25,043 bases of DNA from a virus: positions 34,283-59,325 of IMG/VR virus record IMGVR_UViG_3300030103_001568; one strand, 5' to 3'. The notes beneath the pieces were generated by a model. It searched no databases and was not told the origin of the DNA. It was given only the letters and a program-made list of their open reading frames with translations. Made by a program: the position numbers and the translations under genes. The first letter of the stretch is position 1, and each line of letters starts with the position of its first letter. Below, one piece after another: positions 3,618 through 18,598 of the stretch.

Positions 3618-3917
3618 CTATTCCTCCAATAATTTATTTACTTGTTCTAGTAACTCAACTTCTTTGCCATATCGTTTAACAAACTCTGCCTTGTAAGGAT
3701 GTCTTGATACATAAATAGGATTGTTCTCTCCTCTTCTGTGATGTTCAAAGCAAAGAGGTAATATCTGCAAGTGTGCATCCTTCTTTGTTTTACCATTGAT
3801 GTGATGAATCTCACAAGGCACATAACCCATGCCCATATTGTGACAAACTATACAACCAAGTTGTGATACAGCATCCATGTGTTGCTTTTCTTTTTTGTTA
3901 GGAGTTCTACCTTTCAT
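3618..3917 (-). CDS. Ref-like HNH nuclease (RecA-dependent nuclease family)
   Basis: A 99-residue protein with a zinc-HNH layout: CIVC at residues 22-25, CEIHHI at 35-40, then PLCFEHHRRG at 54-63 and a HPYKAEFVKRYG-x-E segment at 73-86. This order matches the Ref (recombination enhancement function) family of phage P1, a RecA-dependent HNH nuclease that cuts at displacement loops, and its many phage relatives. Length is close to the single-domain members. Cysteines 22, 25, 35 and 56 may bind a structural zinc, and the HH pairs supply catalytic and metal ligands. The ATG at 3917 is preferred over a TTG one codon earlier. It overlaps the upstream resolvase-like gene by 11 nt. In this operon it probably helps recombination or genome processing. 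Confidence 0.8.
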   Translation of the reverse strand: MKGRTPNKKEKQHMDAVSQLGCIVCHNMGMGYVPCEIHHINGKTKKDAHLQILPLCFEHHRRGENNPIYVSRHPYKAEFVKRYGKEVELLEQVNKLLEE

Positions 3918-5142: not shown

Positions 5143-5452
5143 CACTTCCTCCTTGTGTTTCATCAACCTGACTTTCTCCTTCAATAGGATCACCTGCTAT
5201 TGCTTCACAGCTTGTCCACATATAAACAGTTTTTTTGCCTGTGTTTTGATTCACATTTTTGCTTTCCCTGTTCCATTGTGCAACATCTATTACAGGCTTC
5301 TTACCACTCTTACGAACATCTACAAGCTTTTGTAGAAAATCATCATCTAACTCAATCTTACCTTTATGGTCTGGTTGATTCGGTGCTGACTTGAATGTGT
5401 TTTGATACACATTGCCATCAATTTTTATATTATCGTATTTACTTTCACTCAT
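5123..5452 (-). CDS. Putative single-stranded-DNA-binding-like protein with acidic SSB tip
   Basis: A 109-residue protein with a compact, strand-rich first 85 residues (NIKIDGNVYQNTFKSAPNQP, KKPVIDVAQW, KKTVYMWTSCEA), then a disordered Gly/Glu linker and the terminal sequence DEEIPF. Bacterial SSB proteins end in an acidic tip finishing in Ile-Pro-Phe (DDDIPF in E. coli), through which partners bind. Such an ending next to an annealing protein and an exonuclease strongly suggests ssDNA handling. I do not see the classical OB-fold signature clearly, so the binding domain is inferred from length, context and tail. The ATG at 5452 has AAGGAG 7 nt upstream, overlapping the stop of the annealing protein gene. 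Confidence 0.6.
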   Translation of the reverse strand: MSESKYDNIKIDGNVYQNTFKSAPNQPDHKGKIELDDDFLQKLVDVRKSGKKPVIDVAQWNRESKNVNQNTGKKTVYMWTSCEAIAGDPIEGESQVDETQGGSDEEIPF

Positions 5453-5885
5453 CATTAATCTCCTTTGATTTTTGTTTTAGTGTTTCAACGACTTTTTTAT
5501 AGGTATCGTTATCAACCTTTTCTAATCTTTTTAATGACTTGGCATTAGACTTCCAATAACTTTCAAGAGCTTCCTTCGTATCATGTATCTGAGCAGTCTG
5601 GATAAATCCCTCTGAAAATAAAGAAGCCCATGCTTTATCTTCAACATCTTCTTCTTTTACTTCTTTAACTGTAGGCTTCTCCCACTTCTCTTTCTTAGGT
5701 GCAGTCTCTTCAGCATTAAAGTTTGTGTCCTCACCTGCATAGATATAGTGACCAAGACCCAGCATAGCTAAACACTTAACTAAACATCTCATCTTCGCAT
5801 TTGATACTGCCATAGCATCTGGTTTTACAATAGCTTGATTCTTGTGGTTCATAACAGGCAACCACATTTCTCTCCACAGATACAC
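5445..5885 (-). CDS. DUF1071-type single-strand annealing protein, C-terminal portion after frameshift
   Basis: This frame contains the second half of a DUF1071 (Rad52-like SSAP) domain: REMWLPVMNHKNQAIVKP, then a segment A-VSNAKMRCLVKCLAMLGLG and YIYAGED, all diagnostic. A lysine/glutamate-rich linker (EETAPKKEKWEKPTVKEVKE) and a helical C-terminus ending KEINDE follow. The first half of the same domain lies in another frame at 5776-6105. The frame is closed upstream by TAA at 5892-5894 and no normal ribosome site precedes the GTG at 5885. The piece is therefore most likely the tail of one protein, joined by a frame change near 5862-5880, rather than an independent gene. Single-strand annealing proteins pair complementary ssDNA after 5'-3' resection. 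Confidence 0.75.
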   Translation of the reverse strand: MYLWREMWLPVMNHKNQAIVKPDAMAVSNAKMRCLVKCLAMLGLGHYIYAGEDTNFNAEETAPKKEKWEKPTVKEVKEEDVEDKAWASLFSEGFIQTAQIHDTKEALESYWKSNAKSLKRLEKVDNDTYKKVVETLKQKSKEINDE

Positions 5886-7841: not shown

Positions 7842-9596
7842 ATGCAAACACAAAATAGAATTGAGAGTGAAAATATTTTGAGGGCAGTTCAATCTACTAA
7901 TCAAACATCAAGCTTAGAACAAGGACAATACAAAATAAAATGCCCAGAATGTTCTAGTCAAAGATCAAACAAAAACGACAGGTCCTTATCTGTAAAAATA
8001 GATAGTGACCATGTTGTTTATAATTGTCACCATTGTCTAATAGAGGGGGCAGTTTCACTTACGAAAAACTATAAACCGAGGATTACTAAGATGAAGGAGA
8101 CACCAAAAAATATTGTCATACCAAGCCCTGTCAGAGGGGAACAAGCAGAAAAATTTTTAATAGACAGGGGCATTGATATTGATATTGCAATAGATTCTGG
8201 TTGTATTCCTACAATAAAAAACAACCAACCTGTTTTAGCTTTTACTTTTAATGATGATGGTGCTGTTAAATACAGAGCAACAGAAGATAAAAAGTTCTGG
8301 TGGGAGGGCAATAGCCTTACTTTATGGGGCAAACAATACAAGAAAAAAGAAGTGCCTCACATGGAGAAAGTAATAATAATTACCGAAGGAGAGTTTGACA
8401 CACTAGCTATTAGAACTGCATTCAAAGATAGGTTTACTGTTGATTGTTTTTCAGTTCCAAATGGGGCATCTGCAAAAATATCAGAAGGTAAGATTGATCC
8501 AAAAGAAGATGGCAGGTTCAAATATGTTTGGAATGAGAAAGATAAGTTTGATGAAGCAGAAAGAATAATACTTGCAACAGACAATGATGATGCTGGTCTT
8601 GCCCTGAAAGAAGAATTAGCCAGGAGATTGTCTAGAGCTAAATGTTATTTTGTAGACTTTGAAGATTGTAAAGATGCTAATGAATACTTAATAGAAAAAG
8701 GAGACAGCAAACTTAGAGAACAGATAATAAATGCTGAACCTATGCCATTAAAATATCTTAATACCATTGAAGATTATGAAGATGAGCTAGAAAGTTTATA
8801 TCAGAATGGCAATCCAAGAGGGGTATCCACAGGATATAAAAGCCTTGATGATTTATTTACTTTGAAAGAGGGCAGTCTTGTTGTAGTTACAGGGCTTCCA
8901 AATATGGGTAAGTCAAACTTTGTTACACAGCTTACAGTAAATGTTGCTAAGAAGTATGGTTTAAAGACTTGTTTTTGTTCTTTTGAAATGCCACCAGCAT
9001 TACATTCAGCACAGCTTATGCAGATAATAAACGACAAACCCTTCTATGAATTAGAGGGCGGACACCCAAGAATTACAGAGCAAGAAAAACAAGAGTCTTT
9101 AGACTTCATTAAAGACCATTTCTTATTTATGGATTTCAAGATGGGGGCAGACATAGATACAATCCTGGAGTCAGCAGAGGCAAGTGTTCAGCGTATGGGT
9201 AGCAGAATACTTGTTGTTGATCCTTTCAACTTTATACAAAGACCTAATGATGGCATGGTTACAGACCAAGTATCTGAAATGCTAAACAAACTATTAGTCT
9301 TTGCTAAAGAAAAAGATGTATTAGTTTTCTTTGTTTGTCACCCAGCAAAACCAATGGATAGAAGTAAAAAGTTCGTGCCAACAGGCATGGATATATCTCA
9401 CAGTATGAACTTCTTTGCTAAGTGTGACTTGGGAATTACAGTTCACAGAGGAGAAGAAGCAGTTGAAATACATTGTTGGAAATCTAGGTATTATTGGCTT
9501 GGTAAACAGGGCGTGTGTAAAATGACTTATAATCCTGTTGCAGGAACATATGGAGAGTATGAAAAAATTGACAAAAAATACAACTTTAATTTCTAG
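7842..9596 (+). CDS. Bifunctional DNA primase-helicase (T7 gp4/Twinkle-like)
   Basis: A 584-residue protein with the expected order of domains. An N-terminal zinc-binding domain has C34-P-E-C37 and C62-H-H-C65. A Toprim primase follows, with EGEFD at 182-186 and DNDDAG around 247-252. After a linker (about 300-330) comes a RecA-like DnaB-family helicase with Walker A GLPNMGKSN (351-359) and Walker B RILVVDPF (D460). A conserved FFVCHPAKP segment (497-505) and late Arg/Lys residues complete it. It primes lagging strands and unwinds the fork as a hexamer. All catalytic motifs are intact, and length is near T7 gp4 (566). The ATG has AAAGGAG upstream with a rather long spacer. It follows two palindromic operator-like sites, suggesting regulated expression. 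Confidence 0.92.
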   Translation: MQTQNRIESENILRAVQSTNQTSSLEQGQYKIKCPECSSQRSNKNDRSLSVKIDSDHVVYNCHHCLIEGAVSLTKNYKPRITKMKETPKNIVIPSPVRGEQAEKFLIDRGIDIDIAIDSGCIPTIKNNQPVLAFTFNDDGAVKYRATEDKKFWWEGNSLTLWGKQYKKKEVPHMEKVIIITEGEFDTLAIRTAFKDRFTVDCFSVPNGASAKISEGKIDPKEDGRFKYVWNEKDKFDEAERIILATDNDDAGLALKEELARRLSRAKCYFVDFEDCKDANEYLIEKGDSKLREQIINAEPMPLKYLNTIEDYEDELESLYQNGNPRGVSTGYKSLDDLFTLKEGSLVVVTGLPNMGKSNFVTQLTVNVAKKYGLKTCFCSFEMPPALHSAQLMQIINDKPFYELEGGHPRITEQEKQESLDFIKDHFLFMDFKMGADIDTILESAEASVQRMGSRILVVDPFNFIQRPNDGMVTDQVSEMLNKLLVFAKEKDVLVFFVCHPAKPMDRSKKFVPTGMDISHSMNFFAKCDLGITVHRGEEAVEIHCWKSRYYWLGKQGVCKMTYNPVAGTYGEYEKIDKKYNFNF

Positions 9597-10083
9597 TTTA
9601 AAAGTTAATGACATAGGAAGTCAGAAGCTACATGAAAGACATGAAGTAGCTGTCGTCAGTATCAATAATTCTAGAATGGGAAGGGCGATAGTCTTAGACC
9701 AACACCTTATAGACCGACTGTATAAACAAAAATATATAGATGAACAAGAACACTTGGTAGCCGACAGATACTTAAATATGATAGCTAAGTCTATATCGAC
9801 AAGCTCAGTTTGTATGATGTTGCAAAAAGGTTTCTCACCGACTGCCTACACTTATACTGTGCCACGATCAGTTATGTTGGTAGGAGTGCAAAGAAAATTA
9901 AGAAAAGATATAGGGAATAAACAAGAAAGAATATTCTGGAAAATTATGATAAATAATCCCAAGCATATATCAGAAGATATTTTGGAATTAATAAAAGATG
10001 CTTGTGAAAGTTTACAAGCTTATTGGTATGTAGGAGTTAATTCTCCTGTTTCTTTGCTTGAACAAGCAATCCAAGACCACTAG
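9550..10083 (+). CDS. Hypothetical protein (177 aa) downstream of primase-helicase
   Basis: The middle segment LDQHLIDRLYKQKYIDEQEH, followed by LVADRYLNMIA, resembles a helical pattern seen in small phage or prophage DNA-binding proteins (start-Leu-Tyr-x-x-Ile-x-x-x-Gln-x-x-Ala-x-x-Tyr). The C-terminus ILELIKDACESLQAYW is helical. Function is unknown; a replication or regulatory role is inferred from its overlap (47 nt) with the primase-helicase gene. Start candidates are ATG 9550 (AGGA, 4 nt spacing) and ATG 9559 (GGAG, 3 nt spacing); a TTG at 9538 is less likely. It ends convergently, overlapping the ribbon-helix-helix gene by 47 nt. Confidence 0.65.
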   Translation: MESMKKLTKNTTLISSLKVNDIGSQKLHERHEVAVVSINNSRMGRAIVLDQHLIDRLYKQKYIDEQEHLVADRYLNMIAKSISTSSVCMMLQKGFSPTAYTYTVPRSVMLVGVQRKLRKDIGNKQERIFWKIMINNPKHISEDILELIKDACESLQAYWYVGVNSPVSLLEQAIQDH

Positions 10084-10249
10084 GTTTTTCATCTAGTGTT
10101 ATATTGTTTTCTTTAGCTGTCTTGTTAATCATATAGATAATCTGTTTGTTAAGACTTCTGCTTTCGCTTTCTGCAAGTTTATGAGCTAACTCATAAGTCT
10201 TTTCATCACATCTAATGAATAAGCTCTTGTTGTTTGTAATCTTCTTCAT
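10037..10249 (-). CDS. Ribbon-helix-helix (Arc/CopG-like) DNA-binding protein
   Basis: A 70-residue protein. KSLFIRCDEKTYELAHKLAE is a strand with alternating residues followed by helix A, and SRSLNKQIIYMINKTAKE is the turn plus helix B of a ribbon-helix-helix fold. Such proteins dimerise and insert the antiparallel ribbon into the major groove at inverted or tandem repeats. This one is a candidate reader of the CTAGG palindromes or of the 9-bp iterons (inference). It starts inside the preceding gene (38 nt overlap) and its 3' end overlaps the convergent rightward gene. Confidence 0.7.
   Translation of the reverse strand: MKKITNNKSLFIRCDEKTYELAHKLAESESRSLNKQIIYMINKTAKENNITLDEKPSGLGLLVQAKKQEN
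10078..10098 (+). other. Small inverted repeat at convergent gene ends
   Basis: CACTAG (10078-10083) pairs with CTAGTG (10093-10098) across a 9-nt loop. It directly follows the rightward gene stop and is trailed by a T-rich but interrupted stretch. It might slow rightward transcription; it is a poor intrinsic terminator. Confidence 0.3.
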
Positions 10250-10549: not shown

Positions 10550-10812
10550 AACAGAAGCAGGGGAGAAGAAAGGAGTAAATTAATTCCCCCCACAACTGAA
10601 AGCTAGTTTTTTATTGGTTTGAGACTTTGAAACTAGCAAAACAGTTGCCTCGCAATGTTGTGTTTTGTTATTTATCGACATTGAAACACCCACGCAATGA
10701 GAAAAAATCAGTCTAGATACTTACACTTTTAAAGTCGTCCAACAGTCAGTATCAATACTGTTGGGGAGACTACAAAGCATTCTAATCTACTGACAACTTA
10801 ATGCCTTCAATC
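10550..10812. other. Gene-free stretch with several inverted repeats (structured RNA or cruciform candidate)
   Basis: No credible ORF. It holds a bipartite hairpin: CAACTG (10593-10598) and GCTAGTTT (10602-10609) pair with AAACTAGC (10630-10637) and CAGTTG (10642-10647). A second repeat is CAATGT (10653-10658)/ACATTG (10678-10683), or alternatively GTGTTT (10660-10665)/AAACAC (10684-10689). The third is an 8-bp stem CCAACAGT (10739-10746)/ACTGTTGG (10757-10764) with a 10-nt loop; inside it is the perfect palindrome CAGTATCAATACTG. CGCAATG occurs twice (10651-10657, 10693-10699). None of the hairpins has a terminator-like T tract. A non-coding RNA, an operon 3' end or an origin element are all possible. 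Confidence 0.5.
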
Positions 10813-11064
10813 TCATGCTTCTCCTGTTACACACTTTCTCATGTGTGCTTTACTAAATTTAAAGTTTTTGTATTCAAAATCTTCCAGGCATTCAAGACAA
10901 GAATATCCTGTTTCATACATCTCAACCCAACCCTTGTTCTCGTATTCACCATTGATGAAGTGTATAAAAATATATCTTCCTACCACGCCAAACTCTTTAA
11001 AGTCTTTGTTTTCTAAAAACATACCCCTGTTGCCAAAATATTGAATTATGTCTGCTTTACTCAT
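10813..11064 (-). CDS. Small protein with possible C2HC zinc site (83 aa)
   Basis: Last gene of the leftward mini-gene operon. Residues C56-x2-C59 and H74-x3-C78 (YSCLECLEDFEYKNFKFSKA, then HMRKC) could ligate zinc. The first half has an aromatic/glycine-rich strand pattern (GVVGRYIFIHFINGEYENKG). Function unknown. ATG at 11064 has AGGAGG with about 6 nt spacing inside the last codons of the upstream gene. That upstream gene therefore ends KEVSDE. Confidence 0.65.
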   Translation of the reverse strand: MSKADIIQYFGNRGMFLENKDFKEFGVVGRYIFIHFINGEYENKGWVEMYETGYSCLECLEDFEYKNFKFSKAHMRKCVTGEA

Positions 11065-11350
11065 CACTTACCTCCTTTAATGCTTTTAAATTTTTTAAAA
11101 ATTCTTCTTCTGGACTGATCCAAGAGTTATATTTTTCTTTAACAAAATCTTTCAGTTCTTTTTCTTTATCTTCTTGATTTAGTTCTGAAACAAATTTTTT
11201 AGCTAGATAACTAATAACAGCAGACCTTGACTTAAACTTTAATAATTTTTGCAAAGAACAAAGCATCTCGTTTGTTGTAAAAGGAACAGATAAATTAGCC
11301 CCAAACCTACCATGCTTTTCTAATAAAGTTAGTTTTTTCTTCTTACTCAT
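11057..11350 (-). CDS. Putative ribbon-helix-helix-like regulator (97 aa)
   Basis: After a lysine-rich start (MSKKKKLTLLEKHGRFGA) the segment NLSVPFTTNEMLCSLQKLLK and the following FKSRSAVISYLAKKFV have the strand-helix-turn-helix spacing of MetJ/Arc-type proteins. An acidic helical tail ending KEVSDE follows. DNA binding is probable but not certain. The start at 11350, the second of two tandem ATGs, has GGAGG at 6 nt. The SD and tandem ATGs encode the EEEYDE end of the upstream gene. Confidence 0.6.
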   Translation of the reverse strand: MSKKKKLTLLEKHGRFGANLSVPFTTNEMLCSLQKLLKFKSRSAVISYLAKKFVSELNQEDKEKELKDFVKEKYNSWISPEEEFLKNLKALKEVSDE

Positions 11351-11549
11351 CATATTCCTCCTCAATCTTTAAATCTTCTACAGGGTAGCCCATGTATCTT
11401 AATTGCTTTATAACTCTTGCTTTGCTTTGGTCAGATAACTCATGCCAAAAGTCATTCGTAATCCATTGGATAACTTCTTCTAATCTTTCATTAGTATCAA
11501 AGTTTTCAAACATAATTCTTTCCTCTGATTTATGTATTAATATTGACAT
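11343..11549 (-). CDS. Hypothetical acidic protein (68 aa)
   Basis: The protein reads MSILIHKSEERIMFENFDTN at its start, then a helix with two Trp (EEVIQWITNDFWHELSDQSK) and a segment RVIKQLRYMGYPVEDL before the acidic end EEEYDE. No domain is recognised. ATG at 11549 has GGAGG 6 nt upstream within the previous gene's last codons (YGGK). An internal ATG after AGAGGA would give a 56-residue form. Confidence 0.6.
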   Translation of the reverse strand: MSILIHKSEERIMFENFDTNERLEEVIQWITNDFWHELSDQSKARVIKQLRYMGYPVEDLKIEEEYDE

Positions 11550-11749
11550 CATTTACCTCCATAAAGTTTTATAAGAGTGTCTTGATCTAAAGATTTTTTT
11601 AAATCAACTATATTGTCTATCGCTTTTGTAATCTGTTTGCTTATATGTTCTAAGTCTTTATTTAATTCTTTTGTGCTTTCAAAATTATCATCTTGTAAAC
11701 AAGCAACAGATATTTCAGCTTCTCTAAGCAGTTTTAATACTTCATTCAT
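11549..11749 (-). CDS. Small helical protein (66 aa)
   Basis: The protein starts MNEVLKLLREAEISVACLQD and shows heptad-like Leu/Ile spacing through LNKDLEHISKQITKAIDNIV, suggesting a two-helix coiled coil. No family known. ATG at 11749 has GGAGG with 6 nt spacing, inside the last codons of the zinc-ribbon gene (EEVIDE). It is similar in size and helical character, but not clearly in sequence, to the genes at 11887 and 12080. Confidence 0.6.
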   Translation of the reverse strand: MNEVLKLLREAEISVACLQDDNFESTKELNKDLEHISKQITKAIDNIVDLKKSLDQDTLIKLYGGK

Positions 11750-11894
11750 CAATCACCTCCTCATAACAAACACCACAAAGCATTTTATCAAAAGTCACTT
11801 CATCAAAATCTTTATAACCTTTATCTTCATAATTGTTTTTATCTGTTATGTATTCAGCTTTATAGCCACACCTATTACAACAACCTCTACTCAT
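11742..11894 (-). CDS. Zinc-ribbon mini-protein (50 aa)
   Basis: The ORF begins MSRGCCNRCGYKAEYIT and ends MLCGVCYEEVIDE. C6-x2-C9-G and C40-G-x-C43 form a classical two-knuckle zinc ribbon, with a short acidic insert between. Such domains mediate protein or nucleic-acid contacts; phage examples can target host RNA polymerase, but the target here is unknown. ATG at 11894 (second of tandem ATGs) has GGAGG at 6 nt. The gene fills what would otherwise be a gap between 11752 and 11887 and overlaps both neighbours by 8 nt. Confidence 0.7.
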   Translation of the reverse strand: MSRGCCNRCGYKAEYITDKNNYEDKGYKDFDEVTFDKMLCGVCYEEVIDE

Positions 11895-12093
11895 CATTCA
11901 CCTCCTCTTCTTCATATCTGAATCTGTGCAAAGTTTCTTTTTGTATGGTTAGTCTGTTTATTACACTATCTAGAATGCTTTTATCTCTTGTCCTGTTTTT
12001 AGAAAGTAACCCATCTTTTTTTATAATTTTCAAGACATCTACTAACACTTCAAGATTATTTTCAGCTTCTCTTGTTGCTCTAAAAATATCCAT
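11887..12093 (-). CDS. Small helical protein (68 aa)
   Basis: The protein starts MDIFRATREAENNLEVLVDV, continues as amphipathic helices with a basic centre (SKNRTRDKSILDSVINRL), and ends EEEEVNDE. No family recognised. It has a strong Shine-Dalgarno site (AAAGGAGGTGA) ahead of tandem ATGs at 12096/12093. The acidic ending is encoded by the next gene's SD/start cassette. Confidence 0.6.
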   Translation of the reverse strand: MDIFRATREAENNLEVLVDVLKIIKKDGLLSKNRTRDKSILDSVINRLTIQKETLHRFRYEEEEVNDE

Positions 12094-12289
12094 CATTCAC
12101 CTCCTTTAATTTTTTACTATGTTGTCGCCAATATGAAATAAAGTTTTCTAGTGTTTCTAGATGTTCTTCAATCTTGGTATCTTCTTTTATGTTGTAATGA
12201 ACTCTATCAGCAAATATATTATCAATTTCTGTATAGGCTCTTTCTAACTTCTGTAAATCATCTATTAAGAAATTTTTTAATCTACTCAT
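12080..12289 (-). CDS. Small helical protein (69 aa)
   Basis: The protein starts MSRLKNFLIDDLQKLERAYT, is helical throughout (IEEHLETLENFISYWRQHSK) and ends KEVNDGYF. ATG at 12289 overlaps the upstream stop (AATGAGTAG); the ribosome site is a modest AAAGG. Function unknown. It overlaps the next gene by 14 nt. Confidence 0.6.
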   Translation of the reverse strand: MSRLKNFLIDDLQKLERAYTEIDNIFADRVHYNIKEDTKIEEHLETLENFISYWRQHSKKLKEVNDGYF

Positions 12290-12491
12290 TGTTTTTAACC
12301 TTTTCAATTTCATTACCAACCTTTTCACAACAAGACATGCAAAACCAATCACATAAATCTATATTTGTGTTATTGGCTTCCCATTGTTCAATTGTTTCCT
12401 CTGAACATTCTAATATTTCAACAATATCCATAATCATATTTTCATACTCATCTTTCGTATTACATACATTACAAATTCTTATATCGCTCAT
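12282..12491 (-). CDS. Zinc-ribbon mini-protein (69 aa)
   Basis: The protein starts MSDIRICNVCNTKDEYENMI; the second cysteine knuckle lies in DLCDWFCMSCCEKVG. CNVC plus the C..FCMSCC cluster indicates a zinc ribbon with an unusually long acidic-helical insert (MDIVEILECSEETIEQW). ATG at 12491 with GGAGGTGAAGAG upstream is chosen over 12566. Its SD encodes the VEVKR end of the upstream gene. Molecular target unknown. Confidence 0.65.
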   Translation of the reverse strand: MSDIRICNVCNTKDEYENMIMDIVEILECSEETIEQWEANNTNIDLCDWFCMSCCEKVGNEIEKVKNNE

Positions 12492-12763
12492 CTCTTCACC
12501 TCCACTACATGTTCTGCCAGAGTTTTTACACTCCAACCAACTCCAATAGTCCAACCTTCGTCCCATAAATCAAACTCTTTAGGCTCATTAATCGCTAGAT
12601 AAATGCCCCTCAAAAAAGCATAATTTAAGTCCTTTGCACTACCATTAAAACTGTCTCCTTTGTTGTGAATAAACTTCCACAAAGTTTCATCATATGAATC
12701 AGCTTTTATAATTAAGTCTTGTGCTTTTTCATATACAGATTCGCTTACAATTTTCCAAGTCAT
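12488..12763 (-). CDS. Hypothetical protein (91 aa)
   Basis: The protein starts MTWKIVSESVYEKAQDLIIK, with an acidic-aromatic middle (FNGSAKDLNYAFLRGIYLA) and a Trp-rich stretch (FDLWDEGWTIGVGWSVKTLA). No domain recognised. The ATG forms an ATGA overlap with the stop of the DUF2958-like gene and has GGAGGG upstream, so the two are coupled. Confidence 0.65.
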   Translation of the reverse strand: MTWKIVSESVYEKAQDLIIKADSYDETLWKFIHNKGDSFNGSAKDLNYAFLRGIYLAINEPKEFDLWDEGWTIGVGWSVKTLAEHVVEVKR

Positions 12764-13077
12764 AGTCCCTCCCTTGTTTCATCAAGATACTTAACAACAC
12801 TTTTTTCAGGTGTCCAATGTATATCCCTTTCAATCTTCATGCCTAAAGGTAGCTCAATGCTTTCTAATTCATCAAGCCCCACATAGCCCAGCTCTGGAAA
12901 GCCCAAACCTAAATCACATAAACCATATAACAAACCATTACTTTCGTTATACTCTGATATTAACCAAGTGGCAGAACCAACAGGATTAAAGAGCTTCAAG
13001 TAAGGCAACCGATCTTCTGGCTTACGCTTTTTGTTGCTATCCAACAATCTTTTTATTTCTTTAGTAATAAGTTTCAT
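12760..13077 (-). CDS. DUF2958-family protein
   Basis: A 105-residue protein beginning MKLITKEIKRLLDSNKKR, with a FNPVGSATWLISEYNESNG core, LLYGLCDLG and ELGYVGLDELESIELPLGMK-IERDIHW. This order matches DUF2958, a small domain of unknown function common on plasmids, integrative elements and phages. It is complete for the family. A ribosome site (GGAGG, revcomp of 13080-13084) lies just upstream of the ATG, immediately after the previous gene. Confidence 0.8.
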   Translation of the reverse strand: MKLITKEIKRLLDSNKKRKPEDRLPYLKLFNPVGSATWLISEYNESNGLLYGLCDLGLGFPELGYVGLDELESIELPLGMKIERDIHWTPEKSVVKYLDETREGL

Positions 13078-13086
13078 AATTCCTCC

Positions 13087-13548
13087 CTATTCGCCATTTA
13101 AGTATCCAGCAAATTGCATACCATCTTCTCTGTAAAACCAAGATATATGAATATCCTCATTTATATCAGCAACTATTTCATTAAGCTTTGAATAAATACC
13201 TTCAGGTGGAGACCATGCTGTGTCGAAGTCATATCGCAAAACATCTTCTTCATGTTCATGGTTAATATCTCCAACACTCCATTTAGTTCCCCAATTCGAC
13301 AGTCTCCATTCATACCATCTATCATCTTGTTTACCTGTGCTTTTAAATCTCCAAAATGAAAATCTCTCATCTTCATCATCAAAATAAGGCAACTCCCCAT
13401 CTTTGTTAGGAATATTCTTCCAATCAGGTTCAGGGGCAATCTTATTAAAATCAAAAATAGATTCCTTTGATTTCAATAGCTTCTCAATCTTCTTTATATC
13501 TTTTGCATCACCTGTGATACAAACTTCATTACTACACCAATTTGGCAT
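13087..13548 (-). CDS. YubB/Api92-like ferredoxin-fold protein
   Basis: A 153-residue protein starting MPNWCSNEVCITGDAKDI, the typical opening of DUF1281/Api92-like (YubB ferredoxin-like) proteins of phages and plasmids. It continues with FDFNKIAPEPDW and a W..NWGTKWSVGDIN segment and ends DGMQFAGYLNG, all family-like. The biochemical role is unknown. ATG at 13548 has AGAAGGAG upstream and is preferred over 13578. It overlaps the preceding gene by 17 nt. Confidence 0.8.
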   Translation of the reverse strand: MPNWCSNEVCITGDAKDIKKIEKLLKSKESIFDFNKIAPEPDWKNIPNKDGELPYFDDEDERFSFWRFKSTGKQDDRWYEWRLSNWGTKWSVGDINHEHEEDVLRYDFDTAWSPPEGIYSKLNEIVADINEDIHISWFYREDGMQFAGYLNGE

Positions 13549-13771
13549 CTTTCTTCTCCTTTTTATTAATAATCTCATGGATTAATTCCATAAGCTCTTC
13601 TCTGATTTCACTACATTTCATAAAACCAGCATCTTCAACGCCTGTATATTTATCAACGATATTTTCAATATCCTCAGTAAGACAAGCGAAACCATTTGTA
13701 TTAAGGGTAAGTCTTTCATCAACATTACCTTTCTCATCAATATATTTACTTACATATACATATTCATTCAT
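13532..13771 (-). CDS. Hypothetical protein (79 aa)
   Basis: The protein starts MNEYVYVSKYIDEKGNVDER after tandem ATGs (13774, 13771) preceded by AAGGAG. It contains LNTNGFACLTEDIENIVDKY and a helical EIREELMELIHEIINKKEKK tail. No family recognised. The SD/start cassette encodes the EKEIDDE end of the upstream zinc protein. Confidence 0.6.
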   Translation of the reverse strand: MNEYVYVSKYIDEKGNVDERLTLNTNGFACLTEDIENIVDKYTGVEDAGFMKCSEIREELMELIHEIINKKEKKDAKLV

Positions 13772-14000
13772 CATCAATCTCCTTTTCTTCGTAATAAGTC
13801 CAATAATAAGAGCGAGAATCTCCTTTTTCTTCCCACTCTTCTTTTGCTTCGTTAAATGCGTTTACTCCTAAAACTTCTTCAACACATTTTTCAGAGCATA
13901 CATTTTCGCTATCACCGACTATATAAACTCCTTTCTCTTGGTCTAGTTTGTCAATATTAGAATTACAAACTTCACAACTTACAATCCATGTATCAGTCAT
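13764..14000 (-). CDS. Zinc-binding mini-protein (78 aa)
   Basis: MTDTWIVSCEVCNSNIDKLD carries CxxC, and ENVCSEKCVEEVLG carries a second C-x3-C pair. The spacing and the SEKC followed by a helix suggest a treble-clef or MYM-like zinc site. The rest is acidic and aromatic (RSYYWTYYEEKEIDDE). The start at 14000 with GGGAG upstream is better than 14033. Function unknown. Confidence 0.65.
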   Translation of the reverse strand: MTDTWIVSCEVCNSNIDKLDQEKGVYIVGDSENVCSEKCVEEVLGVNAFNEAKEEWEEKGDSRSYYWTYYEEKEIDDE

Positions 14001-14004
14001 ATCA

Positions 14005-14241
14005 TTACTCCCAAATTTCGTTATTAAAATCATCTTCTTGTAGTTCAGGAAATCTCTTTAATGAACATTTAATACAGTAATCTTGACTTTCAATACTGAA
14101 TGCCCATTCACCCACAGACAGAGCATCAGGGTAAATTGTCATGTTTTTTTTGCCCCAATCCAATCTATCGTTTTCGATTATCTCTGTCTGTCCAGCAACA
14201 TCAATTTCAGTATTACAATCATCACAAAAATACTTAATCAT
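14005..14241 (-). CDS. Zinc-ribbon mini-protein (78 aa)
   Basis: The protein begins MIKYFCDDCNTEIDVAGQTE and has DYCIKCSLKRFPELQED near the end. The two CxxC knuckles, C6/C9 and C57/C60, frame a strand-rich insert. Start at 14241: GGAGGCGAAAG precedes the ATG and overlaps the upstream stop, so 14334 is rejected. One of at least four cysteine-paired mini-proteins in this operon. Confidence 0.65.
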   Translation of the reverse strand: MIKYFCDDCNTEIDVAGQTEIIENDRLDWGKKNMTIYPDALSVGEWAFSIESQDYCIKCSLKRFPELQEDDFNNEIWE

Positions 14242-14443
14242 CTTTCGCCTCCTCTGCTCGATAGCCATACCAACTACCACAATTAATTTGTTTCCAATCG
14301 TGGACATCATTATCATCACGCATATCGTTTTCACACATTAGCTCTGCATCTTTAGAGCTAGTGGCATTGACATAAGTGACATAGTAAACAGGTTGGACTG
14401 CTGTCACTCGGTATAATTTAACTTTATCTTTATCTTTACGCAT
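14234..14443 (-). CDS. Hypothetical protein (69 aa)
   Basis: The protein starts MRKDKDKVKLYRVTAVQPVY, with a strand-rich centre (YYVTYVNATSSKDAELMCEN) and a Trp/Gly segment (QINCGSWYGYRAEEAKDD). The layout resembles small strand-helix-strand domains that sense or modify partners, but no family is recognised. Start at 14443 overlaps the upstream stop; GGAG lies 10 nt away, which is long. Confidence 0.6.
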   Translation of the reverse strand: MRKDKDKVKLYRVTAVQPVYYVTYVNATSSKDAELMCENDMRDDNDVHDWKQINCGSWYGYRAEEAKDD

Positions 14444-14714
14444 TTTCTGTAATCTCCTCCTTGATTTGACAATCACCAAGAATGTCTAACTCGTAAGTGC
14501 CTCTGTCTATTTCTTCGACATGATATTCACCATTTACATATTTAGATTTGGTTCTTTGGTCTTTATAAAATTTTACAAAGTAATCAGCTTTAGGATTTTC
14601 AGTATGTAATTGGAAGAGATGAATAATCATCTCAACATAATTAGTATGTTTCTTGATTTCATTATCTGATGTATCAAGACATATATAATATTCGTTTAAT
14701 ATTTCTAGTCTCAT
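14436..14714 (-). CDS. Hypothetical protein (92 aa), first gene of mini-gene operon
   Basis: The protein starts MRLEILNEYYICLDTSDNEI, contains NYVEMIIHLFQLHTENPKAD and a strand region ending ELDILGDCQIKEEITENA. No domain recognised. It is the promoter-proximal gene of the sixteen-gene leftward operon, about 31 nt from the predicted transcript start. AGGAG lies 13 nt before the ATG, a long spacer, so initiation may be weak or the true start may differ. Confidence 0.6.
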   Translation of the reverse strand: MRLEILNEYYICLDTSDNEIKKHTNYVEMIIHLFQLHTENPKADYFVKFYKDQRTKSKYVNGEYHVEEIDRGTYELDILGDCQIKEEITENA

Positions 14715-14751
14715 AATATTTAATTTACTCCTTAAATAATTAATACTTCAA

Positions 14752-14780
14752 ATAGTATATCAAGATAAACTAAATGTAAA
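14752..14780 (-). promoter_or_regulatory. Sigma70-type promoter for the mini-gene operon
   Basis: On the minus strand TTTACA (14780-14775), a 17-nt spacer and TACTAT (14757-14752), predicting a start near 14745. The -35 sequence is the same as in the rightward promoter at 7484-7512. The 9-bp iterons lie just upstream of it. Confidence 0.7.
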
Positions 14781-14822
14781 CAAAAAGATTAATATATTTT
14801 CAACGCCTGTCTAAATAAGCCC

Positions 14823-14858
14823 AGCGACAGTCTCGACAGTATCGATAGTCTCGACAAT
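14823..14858. repeat. Four 9-bp tandem iterons upstream of mini-gene promoter
   Basis: Units AGCGACAGT (14823-14831), CTCGACAGT (14832-14840), ATCGATAGT (14841-14849) and CTCGACAAT (14850-14858), followed by a decayed CTCAATAAA. Consensus is roughly NTCGACAGT. The array lies between the terminator at 14908-14935 and the promoter at 14752-14780, where an operator or replication iteron would be expected. Confidence 0.6.
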
Positions 14859-14907
14859 CTCAATAAATATAAAAATCCACGATCAGTTCAGGTAGTAAAT
14901 TTAGGAC

Positions 14908-14935
14908 AAAAAAAACCCCTCAAAAGAGGGGCTTT
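14908..14935 (-). terminator. Intrinsic terminator of the 14956-15745 gene group
   Basis: On the minus strand CCCCTC-TTTT-GAGGGG followed by eight T. It lies just past the stop at 14956, in the right orientation to end leftward transcription before the next promoter. Confidence 0.85.
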
Positions 14936-14955
14936 AATAGGGGGCTTTGTTTATA

Positions 14956-15258
14956 TTATTTCACCTCCAAGATTTTGCCATGATGTTTTATATCAAACTT
15001 TAAATGATACGCCAGAAGGTCATAGATTAATAAATCCCATTCATAGTCATAAGCCTCCTTCCATATCTCGTTTTTATATCTGCCCCCATCTAAGTAGTCT
15101 TGATTTAGAAAATAATCATAGTCAATCTCGTTATCCTCCGACCAATGCCCATAGGCTTCAAAAGTTCCTTCTTTAAGTTCTAACTTAAAACAAAACTCAT
15201 GGTGTTCAACTCTATCTTCGTAGAGTTCTTTTATTTGTTCTTTTGTCATTCCTCCCAT
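14956..15258 (-). CDS. Hypothetical acidic protein (100 aa)
   Basis: The protein starts MGGMTKEQIKELYEDRVEHH and is rich in Asp, Glu, Tyr and Trp (YGHWSEDNEIDYDYFLNQDY, IWKEAYDYEWDLLIYDLLAY), ending HGKILEVK. The strongly acidic surface is reminiscent of DNA mimics, but no family is recognised and that is only a thought. ATG at 15258 has GGAGG 7 nt upstream and a TAATG-type junction. Its last codons repeat the same GGAGGTGAAATAA cassette although no gene follows. Confidence 0.65.
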   Translation of the reverse strand: MGGMTKEQIKELYEDRVEHHEFCFKLELKEGTFEAYGHWSEDNEIDYDYFLNQDYLDGGRYKNEIWKEAYDYEWDLLIYDLLAYHLKFDIKHHGKILEVK

Positions 15259-15521
15259 TATTTCACCTCCAAGAATTGAGCAGTATGCGAACCTTTAGGC
15301 AGTAATGCTCTTTTAAGTAATTCACCATCAACATAAAAGCGATACTCCCTATCACCATTATCTAGAATCTTATGAGTTGTTTTATGTTTTAAGAAAACAT
15401 GAGAATTGCTGGAACTTGTCCCCACTCGCACTTCTACTTCTCCTCTTTCTTTAACTCCATAAGATTTGCCACCTTTATAAATACATGATGTGACTATGTT
15501 CCATATTGGGTAAGATTTCAT
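15258..15521 (-). CDS. Hypothetical protein (87 aa), strand-rich
   Basis: The protein starts MKSYPIWNIVTSCIYKGGKS, followed by GVKERGEVEVRVGTSSSNSH and HKILDNGDREYRFYVDGELL. The dense beta pattern and the phrase TSSSNSHVFLKHKTTHK give the look of a conserved small phage domain; I recall similar phage and plasmid proteins but no function. ATG at 15521 forms TAATG with the upstream stop and has GGAGG 7 nt away. Confidence 0.65.
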   Translation of the reverse strand: MKSYPIWNIVTSCIYKGGKSYGVKERGEVEVRVGTSSSNSHVFLKHKTTHKILDNGDREYRFYVDGELLKRALLPKGSHTAQFLEVK

Positions 15522-15745
15522 TAGCAAACCTCCAATTCTTCTAATTCCATATAGTCATCACTATCGGCTAAATACTCGACAACCTCAGACCAATACTTAA
15601 AGGGTTGATTTGTGTCGTAATTCCAATTTTCCATTACTTGCTCATTGTCTTGCGTTTTGACAATGATATTATTTTCATCAGTTAAAACCCCATAGCAATT
15701 TATAATAAAATTACCAGCACAGTTTTTATACTTTATTACTTTCAT
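15521..15745 (-). CDS. Hypothetical protein (74 aa)
   Basis: The protein starts MKVIKYKNCAGNFIINCYGV, then DENNIIVKTQDNEQVMENWN and an acidic end (SDDYMELEELEVC). No family recognised. ATG at 15745 has AAGGAG with 7 nt spacing; the extension to 15802 is not supported. It lies downstream of the terminator at 15816-15840, so it needs its own promoter or readthrough. A TTCAAA-17-TATAAG pair just upstream is a weak candidate. Confidence 0.6.
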   Translation of the reverse strand: MKVIKYKNCAGNFIINCYGVLTDENNIIVKTQDNEQVMENWNYDTNQPFKYWSEVVEYLADSDDYMELEELEVC

Positions 15746-15815
15746 TTTTTTACTCCTTATAAAATTTCTGTTTCGTTCTTTGAACTCCTCAGGGTGAACC
15801 AATATTCACCGACAG

Positions 15816-15840
15816 AAAAGGGGGGCGACATTACCCCCCT
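15816..15840 (-). terminator. Intrinsic terminator after the 15845-16147 gene
   Basis: On the minus strand GGGGGG, an 8-nt loop (TAATGTCG), CCCCCC and TTTT. It begins 4 nt beyond the stop of the leftward gene at 15845. The short T tract may allow readthrough into the next gene. Confidence 0.75.
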
Positions 15841-15844
15841 TGAA

Positions 15845-16147
15845 TTATTTTTCATAGTTCTCCTTTAGTATCTGCATCATCTCATCATAATTACGCCCCA
15901 TATATGTCAGGTAATTTCTCACGCCTTCCATATTAGTAAATTCATCTGTATCTATAATATATTCATCAAAGCCATCATTTAAGTTCTCCTCCTTTCCGAA
16001 TATCTCGACAAAATAATTACCTGTGCCTAAATAATCATCATCTCTTCTTATTTCTATTCTTGACACGACTGAATAACCTTCGCCTTTCTTGAAAGTTCTA
16101 AAGCCCTTCTCAATAAAATTTTTACTTTCTAAATCTTTACTACTCAT
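15845..16147 (-). CDS. Hypothetical protein (100 aa)
   Basis: The protein starts MSSKDLESKNFIEKGFRTFK, with strands GYSVVSRIEIRRDDDYLG and NYFVEIFGKEENL and a helical end (RNYLTYMGRNYDEMMQILKE). No domain recognised. AAGGAG lies 8 nt before the ATG. It is transcribed alone from a promoter divergent from the terminase operon and closed by its own terminator, a layout typical of a separately controlled accessory gene. Confidence 0.7.
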   Translation of the reverse strand: MSSKDLESKNFIEKGFRTFKKGEGYSVVSRIEIRRDDDYLGTGNYFVEIFGKEENLNDGFDEYIIDTDEFTNMEGVRNYLTYMGRNYDEMMQILKENYEK

Positions 16148-16178
16148 ATTAATTACTCCTTATTAAATAGTTAAGACC

Positions 16179-16207
16179 ATTAAATCAAATAACCAACTAA
16201 TAATCAA
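16179..16207 (-). promoter_or_regulatory. Sigma70-type leftward promoter
   Basis: On the minus strand TTGATT (16207-16202), a 17-nt spacer and TTTAAT (16184-16179); start predicted near 16172, giving a leader of about 25 nt with AAGGAG. It is back to back with the rightward terminase promoter. Confidence 0.55.
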
Positions 16208-16210
16208 TCT

Positions 16211-16239
16211 TTTAATGAATCATTCTTCCCCTGTATTAT
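16211..16239 (+). promoter_or_regulatory. Rightward promoter of small terminase gene, predicted leaderless
   Basis: A clear -10 TATTAT (16234-16239) stands 6 nt before the ATG at 16246, with a weak -35 TTTAAT (16211-16216) at 17 nt. There is no Shine-Dalgarno site, so the mRNA probably begins at the start codon. The weak -35 suggests an activator. Confidence 0.5.
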
Positions 16240-16245
16240 CCAACT

Positions 16246-16710
16246 ATGAGCAAACCAAATCTAAGGGTAATTAAAAACAATCTCACAATTAAGCAAGAGA
16301 CCTTCTGCAATCTTATTGTTTCAGGTGAGATAGGCACACAGAAAGAAGCATACTTCAGGGCTTATGATGTTGAGCTAGATGAAAAAGGGAATATACCTCA
16401 ATGGGTAGAGAAAGAAGCGACAGTATTATTACAACACCCCAAGATTACCCAAAGGATAAATGAGCTTATTAAGGTCAAAGAAAACAGATTACTAGCCTCC
16501 ACTACTAAAACGAAAGAATATGTTTTAAAGAAGTTGTATGAGCTTGTAGAGACTGAGAACAACCCACAAGCCAGAATAAGAAGCCTAGAGTTACTCGGTA
16601 AATCAATAGCTATGTTCACAGATGTCCAAGAGACTAAGGACACAAGAACAAAAGACCAAGTAGAACAAGACATAGAAGCCAAGCTGAAAGAATTAGAAAG
16701 CCTCACATAA
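16246..16710 (+). CDS. Terminase small subunit
   Basis: A 154-residue protein. LTIKQETFCNLIVSGEIGTQ-KEAYFRAYD is the helix-turn-helix DNA-recognition region of terminase small subunits. QHPKITQRINELIKVKENRL is typical of the next helices, and a helical, charged oligomerisation/tail region follows, ending IEAKLKELESLT. It recognises the packaging site and loads the large subunit. It lies 391 bp upstream of the large subunit, an unusually wide gap that holds a terminator and palindromes, so the two are probably transcribed separately. The start has no ribosome site (leaderless prediction). Confidence 0.85.
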   Translation: MSKPNLRVIKNNLTIKQETFCNLIVSGEIGTQKEAYFRAYDVELDEKGNIPQWVEKEATVLLQHPKITQRINELIKVKENRLLASTTKTKEYVLKKLYELVETENNPQARIRSLELLGKSIAMFTDVQETKDTRTKDQVEQDIEAKLKELESLT

Positions 16711-16836
16711 AAGAACCACCCCCTTTTCCACATAAGTAAGTCAGTCAGATAATACCCCCACCCCCCCTAGCCAGACAACAGTTACCTGTCATCATATATA
16801 TACTGTGATCTGCACAAATAATTACTTAATTTTGCC

Positions 16837-16856
16837 AGGGGTACCCCCTTTTTTTA
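16837..16856 (+). terminator. Intrinsic terminator after small terminase gene
   Basis: AGGGG-TAC-CCCCT followed by a T-rich tract (16849-16855). The stem is short but GC-only, in rightward orientation. Confidence 0.6.
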
Positions 16857-16878
16857 TTTTGATAGCGTTTTGATAGCG
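16857..16878. repeat. 11-bp direct tandem repeat
   Basis: TTTTGATAGCG occurs twice head to tail, followed by an alternating TA tract. It may be a protein-binding site for packaging or transcription; the role is unknown. Confidence 0.6.
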
Positions 16879-16895
16879 TTATATATATAAATTTG

Positions 16896-17086
16896 TTAGA
16901 ATTAACCTAGGGTCCCATACATAGGGGTAGAATATTATGCAAAAATCTGTTGACAATCATGTGAAGAGGGGTCAATATGGTAGAATATTCATATTCCTAT
17001 GGAGTAAATCTAGAAAATACCTAAGATTTAGAAAAATTCTAACTAGGAATTTCCTAATAGAAAAAGTTATATTAGATATTACCTAG
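16896..17086. promoter_or_regulatory. Cluster of four palindromic operator-like sites upstream of large terminase
   Basis: TTAGA-ATTAA-CCTAG (16896-16910), CTAGA-AAATA-CCTAA (17010-17024), CTAGG-AATTT-CCTAA (17043-17057) and TTAGA-TATTA-CCTAG (17072-17086). All share YTAGR, an AT-only 5-bp centre and CCTAR with the pair at 7772-7818. The last three are spaced 33 and 29 bp centre to centre and end 15 bp before the large terminase ATG. Confidence 0.6.
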
Positions 17087-17101
17087 TATTAGGAAGGAAT
17101 A

Positions 17102-18598
17102 ATGAAGCCAGAACTTATATCAAAAATTAGAGCCTTGCCTCCAGAACAACAAGAGGAGTTCATAGACGATATCTTAGCCTATGAGAGAGAGGTTCGTAAG
17201 GATCAAGTTAGAAACAGCTACATGAGCTTTGTAAAGAGCCAATGGAGTGCCTTTATTGAAGGACCACACCATGAAATTATGGCTAAAGCTTTTGAAAGAG
17301 TAGCTAATGGTGAGTTAAAACGCCTTATTATTAACATGCCACCCAGACATACCAAGTCGGAGTTCGCATCTTACCTATTACCTGCATGGTTTTTAGGTAG
17401 ATACCCAGAAAAGAAAATAATTCAGACAGCTCATACCGCAGAACTTGCAGTAGGCTTTGGTAGAAAGGTTAGAAACCTAGTGGATAGTGAAGATTTTAAA
17501 GAAGTATTTAGCGATGTAAGTCTTAGATCAGACTCTAAGGCTGCTGGTCGTTGGAATACGAACAAAGGTGGCGAGTATTTCGCTATCGGTGTTGGTGGTG
17601 CTGTTACTGGTAAAGGTGCAGACCTTCTTATTATTGATGACCCCCATTCAGAACAAGAAGGAGCTAGTGCTGATCCAGCAGTATTCAACAAGACGTTTGA
17701 ATGGTACACATCTGGTCCTCGTCAACGTCTGCAACCAGGAGGTGCCATAGTCATTGTTATGACTAGATGGAACCAAAAGGATTTGACAGGACAAGTAGTA
17801 GATGCATCTATCAAACGTGGTGGTTCTGATGAGTGGGAAGTCATAGAACTTCCTGCCATCATGCCCTCTGGTAAACCTCTTTGGGAAGCTTTTTGGAAGC
17901 TAGAAGAGTTAGAGGCTTTGAAGTCTGAACTGCCAACAAGTAAATGGATGGCACAATACCAACAAGACCCAACCTCAGAAGAAGGTGCTTTAGTTAAGCG
18001 TGAATGGTGGAATGTATGGGAAAGTAGAGAACCACCTGATTGTGAGTTTATAATTCAATCTTGGGATACAGCTTTTATGAAACATGAAAGAGCTGACTTT
18101 AGTGCTTGCACTACCTGGGGAGTATTCTACAGAGAAGGTGATGATGGACTATTGGCACCTAACCTGATACTACTAGATGCTTACCAAGAGAGATTAGAGT
18201 TTCCAGAATTAAAGCGTAAAGCTATGGAAATGTATCAAGAAAGAAAACCAGATGCATTTATTATTGAAGCGAAAGCAGCAGGTATGCCACTCATATTTGA
18301 ATTGAGAGCTATGGGCATTCCTGTACAAGAGTACACACCAAGTAGAGGTAATGACAAGATATCAAGAGTTAATGCAGTCTCAGACCTATTCGCATCAGGC
18401 GTAGTCTGGGCACCCCAAACAAGATGGGCAGAAGAAGTAGTAGAGCAGTTTGCTGGATTCCCTAATACGGAACATGACGATTTAGTTGATAGCAGTACGC
18501 AAGCTCTGTTAAGATTTAGACAAGGCGGATTTATACCTATTTATTCTGATGAAGAAGATGAACCATTAGAACATAATAGAACTGCAAATTATTACTAG
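17102..18598 (+). CDS. Terminase large subunit
   Basis: A 498-residue packaging motor. The ATPase domain has a variant Walker A PPRHTKS (80-86), Walker B LLIIDD (175-180) and coupling motif VMTRWNQKDL (219-228). The C-terminal RNase H-like nuclease has D322 in QSWDTA, E389 in IIEAKAAG and the HDDLVDS cluster (458-464), so all catalytic acids are present. It cuts concatemers and pumps DNA into the prohead through the portal. The ATG follows AGGAAGGAATA, part of the last palindrome-flanked promoter region. The length is typical of large subunits. Confidence 0.95.
   Translation: MKPELISKIRALPPEQQEEFIDDILAYEREVRKDQVRNSYMSFVKSQWSAFIEGPHHEIMAKAFERVANGELKRLIINMPPRHTKSEFASYLLPAWFLGRYPEKKIIQTAHTAELAVGFGRKVRNLVDSEDFKEVFSDVSLRSDSKAAGRWNTNKGGEYFAIGVGGAVTGKGADLLIIDDPHSEQEGASADPAVFNKTFEWYTSGPRQRLQPGGAIVIVMTRWNQKDLTGQVVDASIKRGGSDEWEVIELPAIMPSGKPLWEAFWKLEELEALKSELPTSKWMAQYQQDPTSEEGALVKREWWNVWESREPPDCEFIIQSWDTAFMKHERADFSACTTWGVFYREGDDGLLAPNLILLDAYQERLEFPELKRKAMEMYQERKPDAFIIEAKAAGMPLIFELRAMGIPVQEYTPSRGNDKISRVNAVSDLFASGVVWAPQTRWAEEVVEQFAGFPNTEHDDLVDSSTQALLRFRQGGFIPIYSDEEDEPLEHNRTANYY

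Follow-up and report, generated by a model that had tools for sequence, protein, structure and literature searches.

Mosaicism at the level of single genes is already known from mycobacteriophages, in which a module is one gene common to otherwise unrelated genomes (PMC3029335), and the transfer of whole modules across families is known from pelagiphages (PMC9599517). In the pelagiphage HTVC027P, the early-expressed genes are all of unknown function (PMC12753301). Here we describe an array of sixteen small genes, g1 to g16 (positions 14714 to 10813, minus strand), in the virus record IMGVR_UViG_3300030103_001568, which is related to HTVC027P; the stretch analysed, hereafter the window, makes up the right-hand 25 kb (25,043 nucleotides (nt)) of this 59,325-base record. 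Comparison with contigs and loci of related viruses, designated by L-numbers (L003, L168 etc.), leads us to view the region as an accessory-gene expression platform, a fixed control block loaded with exchangeable genes, a reading to which we assign a probability of about 0.62. The exchange of single-gene cassettes is its strongest feature and one overlooked by the first-pass annotation, which had been made from the sequence alone.

The yardstick for this exchange is the phage's own terminase gene, which is 91–93% identical to those of its two closest sisters (a near-identical contig left out). Gene g9 (12282–12491, 69 amino acids) lies within a run of 238 identical bases common to the window and L168, and its DNA is 93–96% identical in L169 and L170. 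For g11 (11887–12093, 68 amino acids, alternative start at 12096) the DNA identity is 92% in L169, where the protein is 91% identical; for g12 (11742–11894, 50 amino acids, alternative start at 11897) it is 84–90% in four contigs, and for g10 (12080–12289, 69 amino acids, probably helical) 89% in L187. The protein encoded by g16 (10813–11064, 83 amino acids) is 95% identical in L175. We counted 38 outside occurrences, not including the near-identical contig or the genes g6 and g7. The upstream neighbour could be compared in 34 of them and was the same once; the downstream neighbour could be compared in 28 and was likewise the same once. Both cases are the pair g3–g4 in L068. Gene order is permuted: g12 precedes g10 in L187, g10 precedes g9 in L173, and L175 has g1, u4 (from a second, smaller array described below), g16 and g13. 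Homology is thus confined to one gene amid different surroundings, as in the mycobacteriophage modules.

Averaged over 24 pairs, identity upstream of a shared gene is near background (0.17–0.38) as far as some 16 nt from the start codon, with background itself reached about 25–30 nt ahead of it, and climbs to 0.52–0.57 in the last 15 nt, compared to 0.33–0.38 in unrelated controls aligned on the Shine-Dalgarno (SD) sequence. It is 0.7–0.9 over the first 30 nt of the open reading frame (ORF) and again ~0.3 by 15 nt past the stop. By this profile, the unit of exchange is the SD plus the ORF.

The partner in the closest case belongs to a different lineage. The full L168 record (48.5 kb) has no match to the window phage's terminase or capsid protein; it carries DNA polymerase A and a capsid protein that has 58% identity with its HTVC115P counterpart and 45% with the one from HMO-2011. 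In L168, g9 is followed by the first codons of g10 (MSRLKNFLIKDGE, then a stop), a stub of 13 codons, from which we infer that L168 descends from a g9–g10 arrangement like that of the window and later lost the rest of g10. The HMO-2011-type marine podoviruses (HTVC115P, HMO-2011 and the CRP phages) therefore resemble the window phage in a near-identical g9, via L168, and also in an Api92-like gene (HMO-2011, CRP-207) and a DUF2958 gene (CRP-212, CRP-3), whereas their capsid, terminase and replication genes differ. As in the multigene transfers described for pelagiphages (PMC9599517), distant marine phage lineages exchange DNA, but metabolic and secretion modules are transferred there and single small genes of unknown function here. 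Unlike the mycobacteriophage modules (PMC3029335), the genes are near-identical between marine podovirus lineages, are permuted behind a conserved control block and in one case have left a truncated neighbour. What the comparison appears to add is this movement of near-identical single accessory genes, in any of several orders, across marine podovirus lineages behind a control block that is kept.

The control block lies directly upstream of g1 on the minus strand and comprises a terminator-like hairpin with a T run (14912–14935; 10 pairs, 5 of them GC), which closes the upstream mini-array and stands just upstream of the promoter, a 9-nt tandem repeat and possible operator (14824–14859; ATTGTCGAG ACTATCGAT ACTGTCGAG ACTGTCG), and a putative sigma-70-type promoter (14752–14780; TTTACA-17-TACTAT). 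The sister L003 (large terminase gene, terL, 91% identical in DNA; small terminase, terS, 92% in protein) has in common with the window array just one gene, g6 (69%), besides a distant version of u3 (32%) in the region upstream. Its intergenic region keeps a T-rich stem, shorter and at the equivalent position, the 9-nt tandem GTCGA repeat, which is also kept in L065, and a promoter-like site, TTGACT-17-TAGTAT, with position and 17-nt spacing preserved. The genes thus turn over while the control region stays. The first-pass annotation had placed all sixteen genes behind one promoter; the site and its conserved setting in L003 favour this, but a sigma-70 scan did no better than chance (25 matches versus 30.6 in shuffled sequences, no excess). 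A small basic protein encoded at 10037–10249 on the minus strand has a weak match to an Arc-like repressor (PHROG 228, 8.5e-4) and could regulate the repeats at 14824–14859.

All sixteen ORFs lie on the minus strand and span 50–153 codons, as the first-pass annotation had them, and an SD match of at least 4 nt precedes every start (range 4–8 nt). The match is at least 5 nt at 14 of the 16, a level reached by 7% of the 114 further ATGs on that strand (7–18% across controls overall). Overlap of the genes, also claimed at first pass, holds for 13 of the 15 junctions, mostly by 4, 8, 11 or 17 nt, figures in which start choice matters; at the other two, the genes are separated by 4 and 9 nt. Usable relatives were available for twelve genes. 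Their ratios of nonsynonymous to synonymous substitution rates (dN/dS) are 0.07–0.67, except in g3, where silent change is saturated, which argues that the genes with relatives encode selected proteins under purifying selection. Since most genes overlap the next at start and stop, translation is probably coupled. In the platform we propose, the upstream block would drive the sixteen genes as one early message, each gene carrying its own SD, and SD-plus-ORF units would be gained, lost and swapped between marine podovirus lineages as the block persists. Swapping would proceed by random joining followed by selection, and the g10 stub in L168 appears to fit such imprecise joining.

Unrelated small proteins ending in ...EVxDE or ...DDE are found in this array (g4, g11, g12, g15) and in those of L003, L173 and L187. 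The reason is that their final codons also serve as SD and start for the gene that follows; it seems to be the downstream cassette that dictates the C-terminal tail. Starts at which both alternative frames are closed are enriched mildly (14% in overlapping genes versus 6–10%), and we rejected them as a hallmark.

An alternative that we consider unlikely is that exchange is directed, the repeated SD/start/stop junctions acting as short-homology linkers at which a Sak-type annealing protein of the phage joins incoming cassettes, so that the mechanism itself, and not selection alone, would target gene borders. The record does encode a Sak-family annealing protein (5445–5885, 4.2e-21) and a RecA-dependent nuclease (3618–3917), phage mosaics are made by Rad52-like recombinases (PMC3945230), and the raised identity in the 15 nt before the start exceeds that of the SD-aligned controls. 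The sequence GGAGGTGAWTGATG occurs 10 times in the loci compared versus 0.03 expected from base composition, a count that selection for the SD alone would raise. Yet the shared junctions, at 9–20 nt, are shorter than the 23–27 bp Red-beta pairing length cited in PMC3945230, the downstream breakpoint in L168 falls within g10, of which a stub is left, the enrichment of frame-closing starts is mild, and 15 partner records gave no Sak match in a search run without a positive control. As regards an integron-type array, which would have an integrase and attC-type sites bounding its cassettes, most junctions overlap and leave no room for such a site and the L168 breakpoint is within a gene, though no search was aimed at an integrase.

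The terL of the record is 52–60% identical to those of the Pelagibacter phages HTVC027P and HTVC023P and of phages 023Pt_psg01 and DSL-LC04, so that its terminase is related to those of HTVC023P-type phages. DNA polymerase A, a core gene of HTVC023P-type phages (PMC9599517), has no match in the record in a search that included positive controls, although the record may be incomplete. A DnaB/Toprim primase-helicase and the Sak protein are encoded, and with this combination the record looks like a mosaic relative of HTVC023P-type phages and not a clear member. Like the pelagiphages of this type (HTVC027P, HTVC023P, 023Pt_psg01) and DSL-LC04, it has a run of small genes between replication genes and terminase; unlike them, it has no detectable DNA polymerase A and a different primase-helicase. 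The array genes have no match in these four records. A separate megablast search with the whole window gave no matches.

The array sits between the primase-helicase (7842–9596) and the terminase genes, a location that would suit a role in phage replication or phage DNA metabolism as opposed to a host-directed one. Small cysteine-pair proteins often act in nucleic-acid transactions, and the model of the DUF2958 protein encoded by g7 (12760–13077, 105 amino acids) is small and mostly beta, with weak matches that include Sm-, Tudor- and KOW-like domains. We nevertheless consider this role doubtful: close sisters have almost none of the array genes, which would make these genes dispensable for basic replication, and the genes turn over much faster than terL.

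The first-pass annotation regarded the array as enriched in cysteine-pair zinc motifs, with four paired-cysteine proteins and a fifth, C2HC-like site in g16. Locally the enrichment stands: two CX2-4C pairs occur in 4 of 16 array products, whereas among the record's remaining small proteins the figure is 1 of 53 (p about 0.009 in a one-sided hypergeometric test calculated by hand). In related viral loci, the rate is 8.1% for 593 small array genes and 7.4% for 865 other small genes; the enrichment is therefore local, and we rejected it as a general or defining trait of such arrays. Three of the four proteins held up, with all four cysteines kept in 8 of 8 sequences for g4 (13764–14000, 78 amino acids; C9, C12, C35 and C39), 7 of 7 for g9 and 4 of 4 for g12, the pairs in the latter two being of the CXXC form. 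In g3 (14005–14241, 78 amino acids), both CXXC pairs are lost in L068, one of its two relatives, and partly kept in L058. The C2HC reading of g16 was dropped because its first cysteine, C56, and its histidine, H74, are present only in the two closest of six sequences and replaced in the other four. The model of g4 has a treble-clef-like order of elements at low confidence (predicted local distance difference test score (pLDDT) of 58, too weak for structure search); g4 is probably zinc-binding, and some array products would bind zinc. That the array is mainly made up of cysteine-pair relatives sharing a single biochemical role is very improbable despite the local excess and the conservation of three of the four, since the motif is absent from 11 of 16 products, those with cysteine pairs have no mutual similarity, the fifth site is not conserved and the rate in arrays of other phages equals background.

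Two array products belong to families frequent on mobile elements, and here the first-pass description, of small accessory genes without known function, a DUF2958 and an Api92-like protein among them, was borne out. The g7 product matches DUF2958 (PF11171) over residues 3–102 of 105, the whole domain, at 8e-30 and 103.9 bits against a cut-off of 21; IMG/VR contains at least 144 of its relatives. The g6 product (13087–13548, 153 amino acids) matches PHROG 20518 at 1.5e-26, in agreement with an Api92-like assignment, although its score of 22.0 bits to Api92-like/DUF1281_C (PF18406) falls just short of the curated Pfam cut-off of 22.8. Structure prediction, proposed at first pass as a check, yielded a confident model for g7 (pLDDT 94.7) and the weak one for g4, and neither indicated a function: the best Foldseek E value for g7 was 0.46 and the best VIA-align Z score 4.8, in the range that the tool calls uninformative, with no clear match to a solved structure, and despite the confident model we rejected an assignment of function by fold. 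Sequence searches of g6, g7 and g15 against solved structures gave nothing useful, a literature search on DUF2958 and Api92 found no functional paper in the collection searched, and g4, g9 and g16 had no matches among INPHARED phages. We attributed to chance the weak matches in Pfam, PHROGs, NCBIfam and PADLOC (among them AdenylateSensor, FliL, THP2, LYR-like and Tin). Small proteins that begin with MGTRCNI or MSTRSLI are found repeatedly in arrays of this kind, close to Api92-like or DUF2958 genes (L003:3820-4257, L087:4513-4995); the L003 protein has no Pfam match.

Returning to the expression platform, we think that its products are probably host-takeover or counter-defence factors. The backing is indirect, namely the dispensability of the genes in sisters, their fast turnover, the purifying selection seen where relatives exist, the mostly acidic character of the products (g15, with an isoelectric point (pI) of 9.3, is the sole basic one), the early genes of HTVC027P (PMC12753301) and the proximity of DUF2958 to an ArdC-like zincin gene, no more than 4 kb away, in 2 of 6 plasmids inspected. 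Recurrence of near-identical single genes in unrelated ocean phages is also what one would expect of tools directed at bacterial hosts. The idea of early, exchangeable small genes is shared with plasmid leading regions that carry anti-defence genes (PMC11541004); unlike these, the present locus is in a phage, and Pfam, PHROGs, NCBIfam and PADLOC identified no known anti-defence gene in it. Several observations weigh against the platform or its host-directed role. No known anti-host or anti-defence protein was matched in those four collections, which include no dedicated anti-defence library, and a PADLOC scan of ten array products gave no convincing defence-family match. DUF2958 and Api92-like proteins occur so widely that their role may be an ordinary one, independent relatives of g8, g14 and g15 are missing from the loci compared, and a single conserved comparison, with L003, supports the putative promoter. 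A further-reaching possibility, which we regard as speculative, is that marine podoviruses of different lineages draw single-gene cassettes directed against the host from one pool; the SD-start-stop junctions of these cassettes would be standardised, so that their order behind a constant early promoter would be free, and the annealing recombinase of the phage itself would aid their insertion.

The remaining array genes, all on the minus strand like those above, differ in how far relatives could be traced. Relatives of g1 (14436–14714, 92 amino acids) are found in L120 (49%) and L175 (47%), of g5 (13532–13774, 80 amino acids) in L073 (52%) and of g13 (11549–11749, 66 amino acids) in L175 (47%), and g2 (14234–14443, 69 amino acids) has a weak one in L170 (32%). 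The sole relative of g8 (12488–12763, 91 amino acids) is in the near-identical contig, and none was found among the relatives searched for g14 (11343–11549, 68 amino acids, alternative starts at 11552 and 11513) or g15 (11057–11350, 97 amino acids). By eye g15 gave the impression of a ribbon-helix-helix protein; no search backed this and we do not claim it.

The second mini-array, u1 to u4, occupies 14956–16147 on the minus strand, and its four genes behave as cassettes in the same way as those of the main array: u1 and u2 are 66–74% identical in L068, u3 66% in L169 and u4 49% in L175. Beyond g16, a non-coding region (10599–10812, minus strand) folds better than shuffled sequences (z -2.2) and contains a T-run, with a likely transcription end near 10706–10700; positions 10599–10816 gave nothing over threshold in Rfam and no INPHARED match. 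Pieces of this region recur at L173:8878-8995, L187:3909-4026 and L175:4855-4967. Its outer parts lie merely 21 nt apart in L173 and its middle part matches L175 and L187, so this DNA also looks modular. The virus record G000:C1 has consecutive CsgG, FecR and CHASE2-adenylate cyclase genes (14019-18135; L076, L194), a curli-secretion-type set of a kind previously reported in pelagiphages (PMC9599517), and a CHASE2-cyclase is also present in the L168 record (L193:6345-8075).

If the early genes of abundant ocean phages are mostly of unknown function and yet are exchanged singly between lineages, then the network of exchange would flag candidates for host-takeover and defence-evasion screens, and it would hint at which phages have hosts in common. 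The DUF2958 protein (12760–13077) is a worthwhile structure target. The sharp limits of identity at gene borders, together with the one truncated stub, provide data on the long-standing question of directed junction recombination versus random joining plus selection in the making of phage mosaics.

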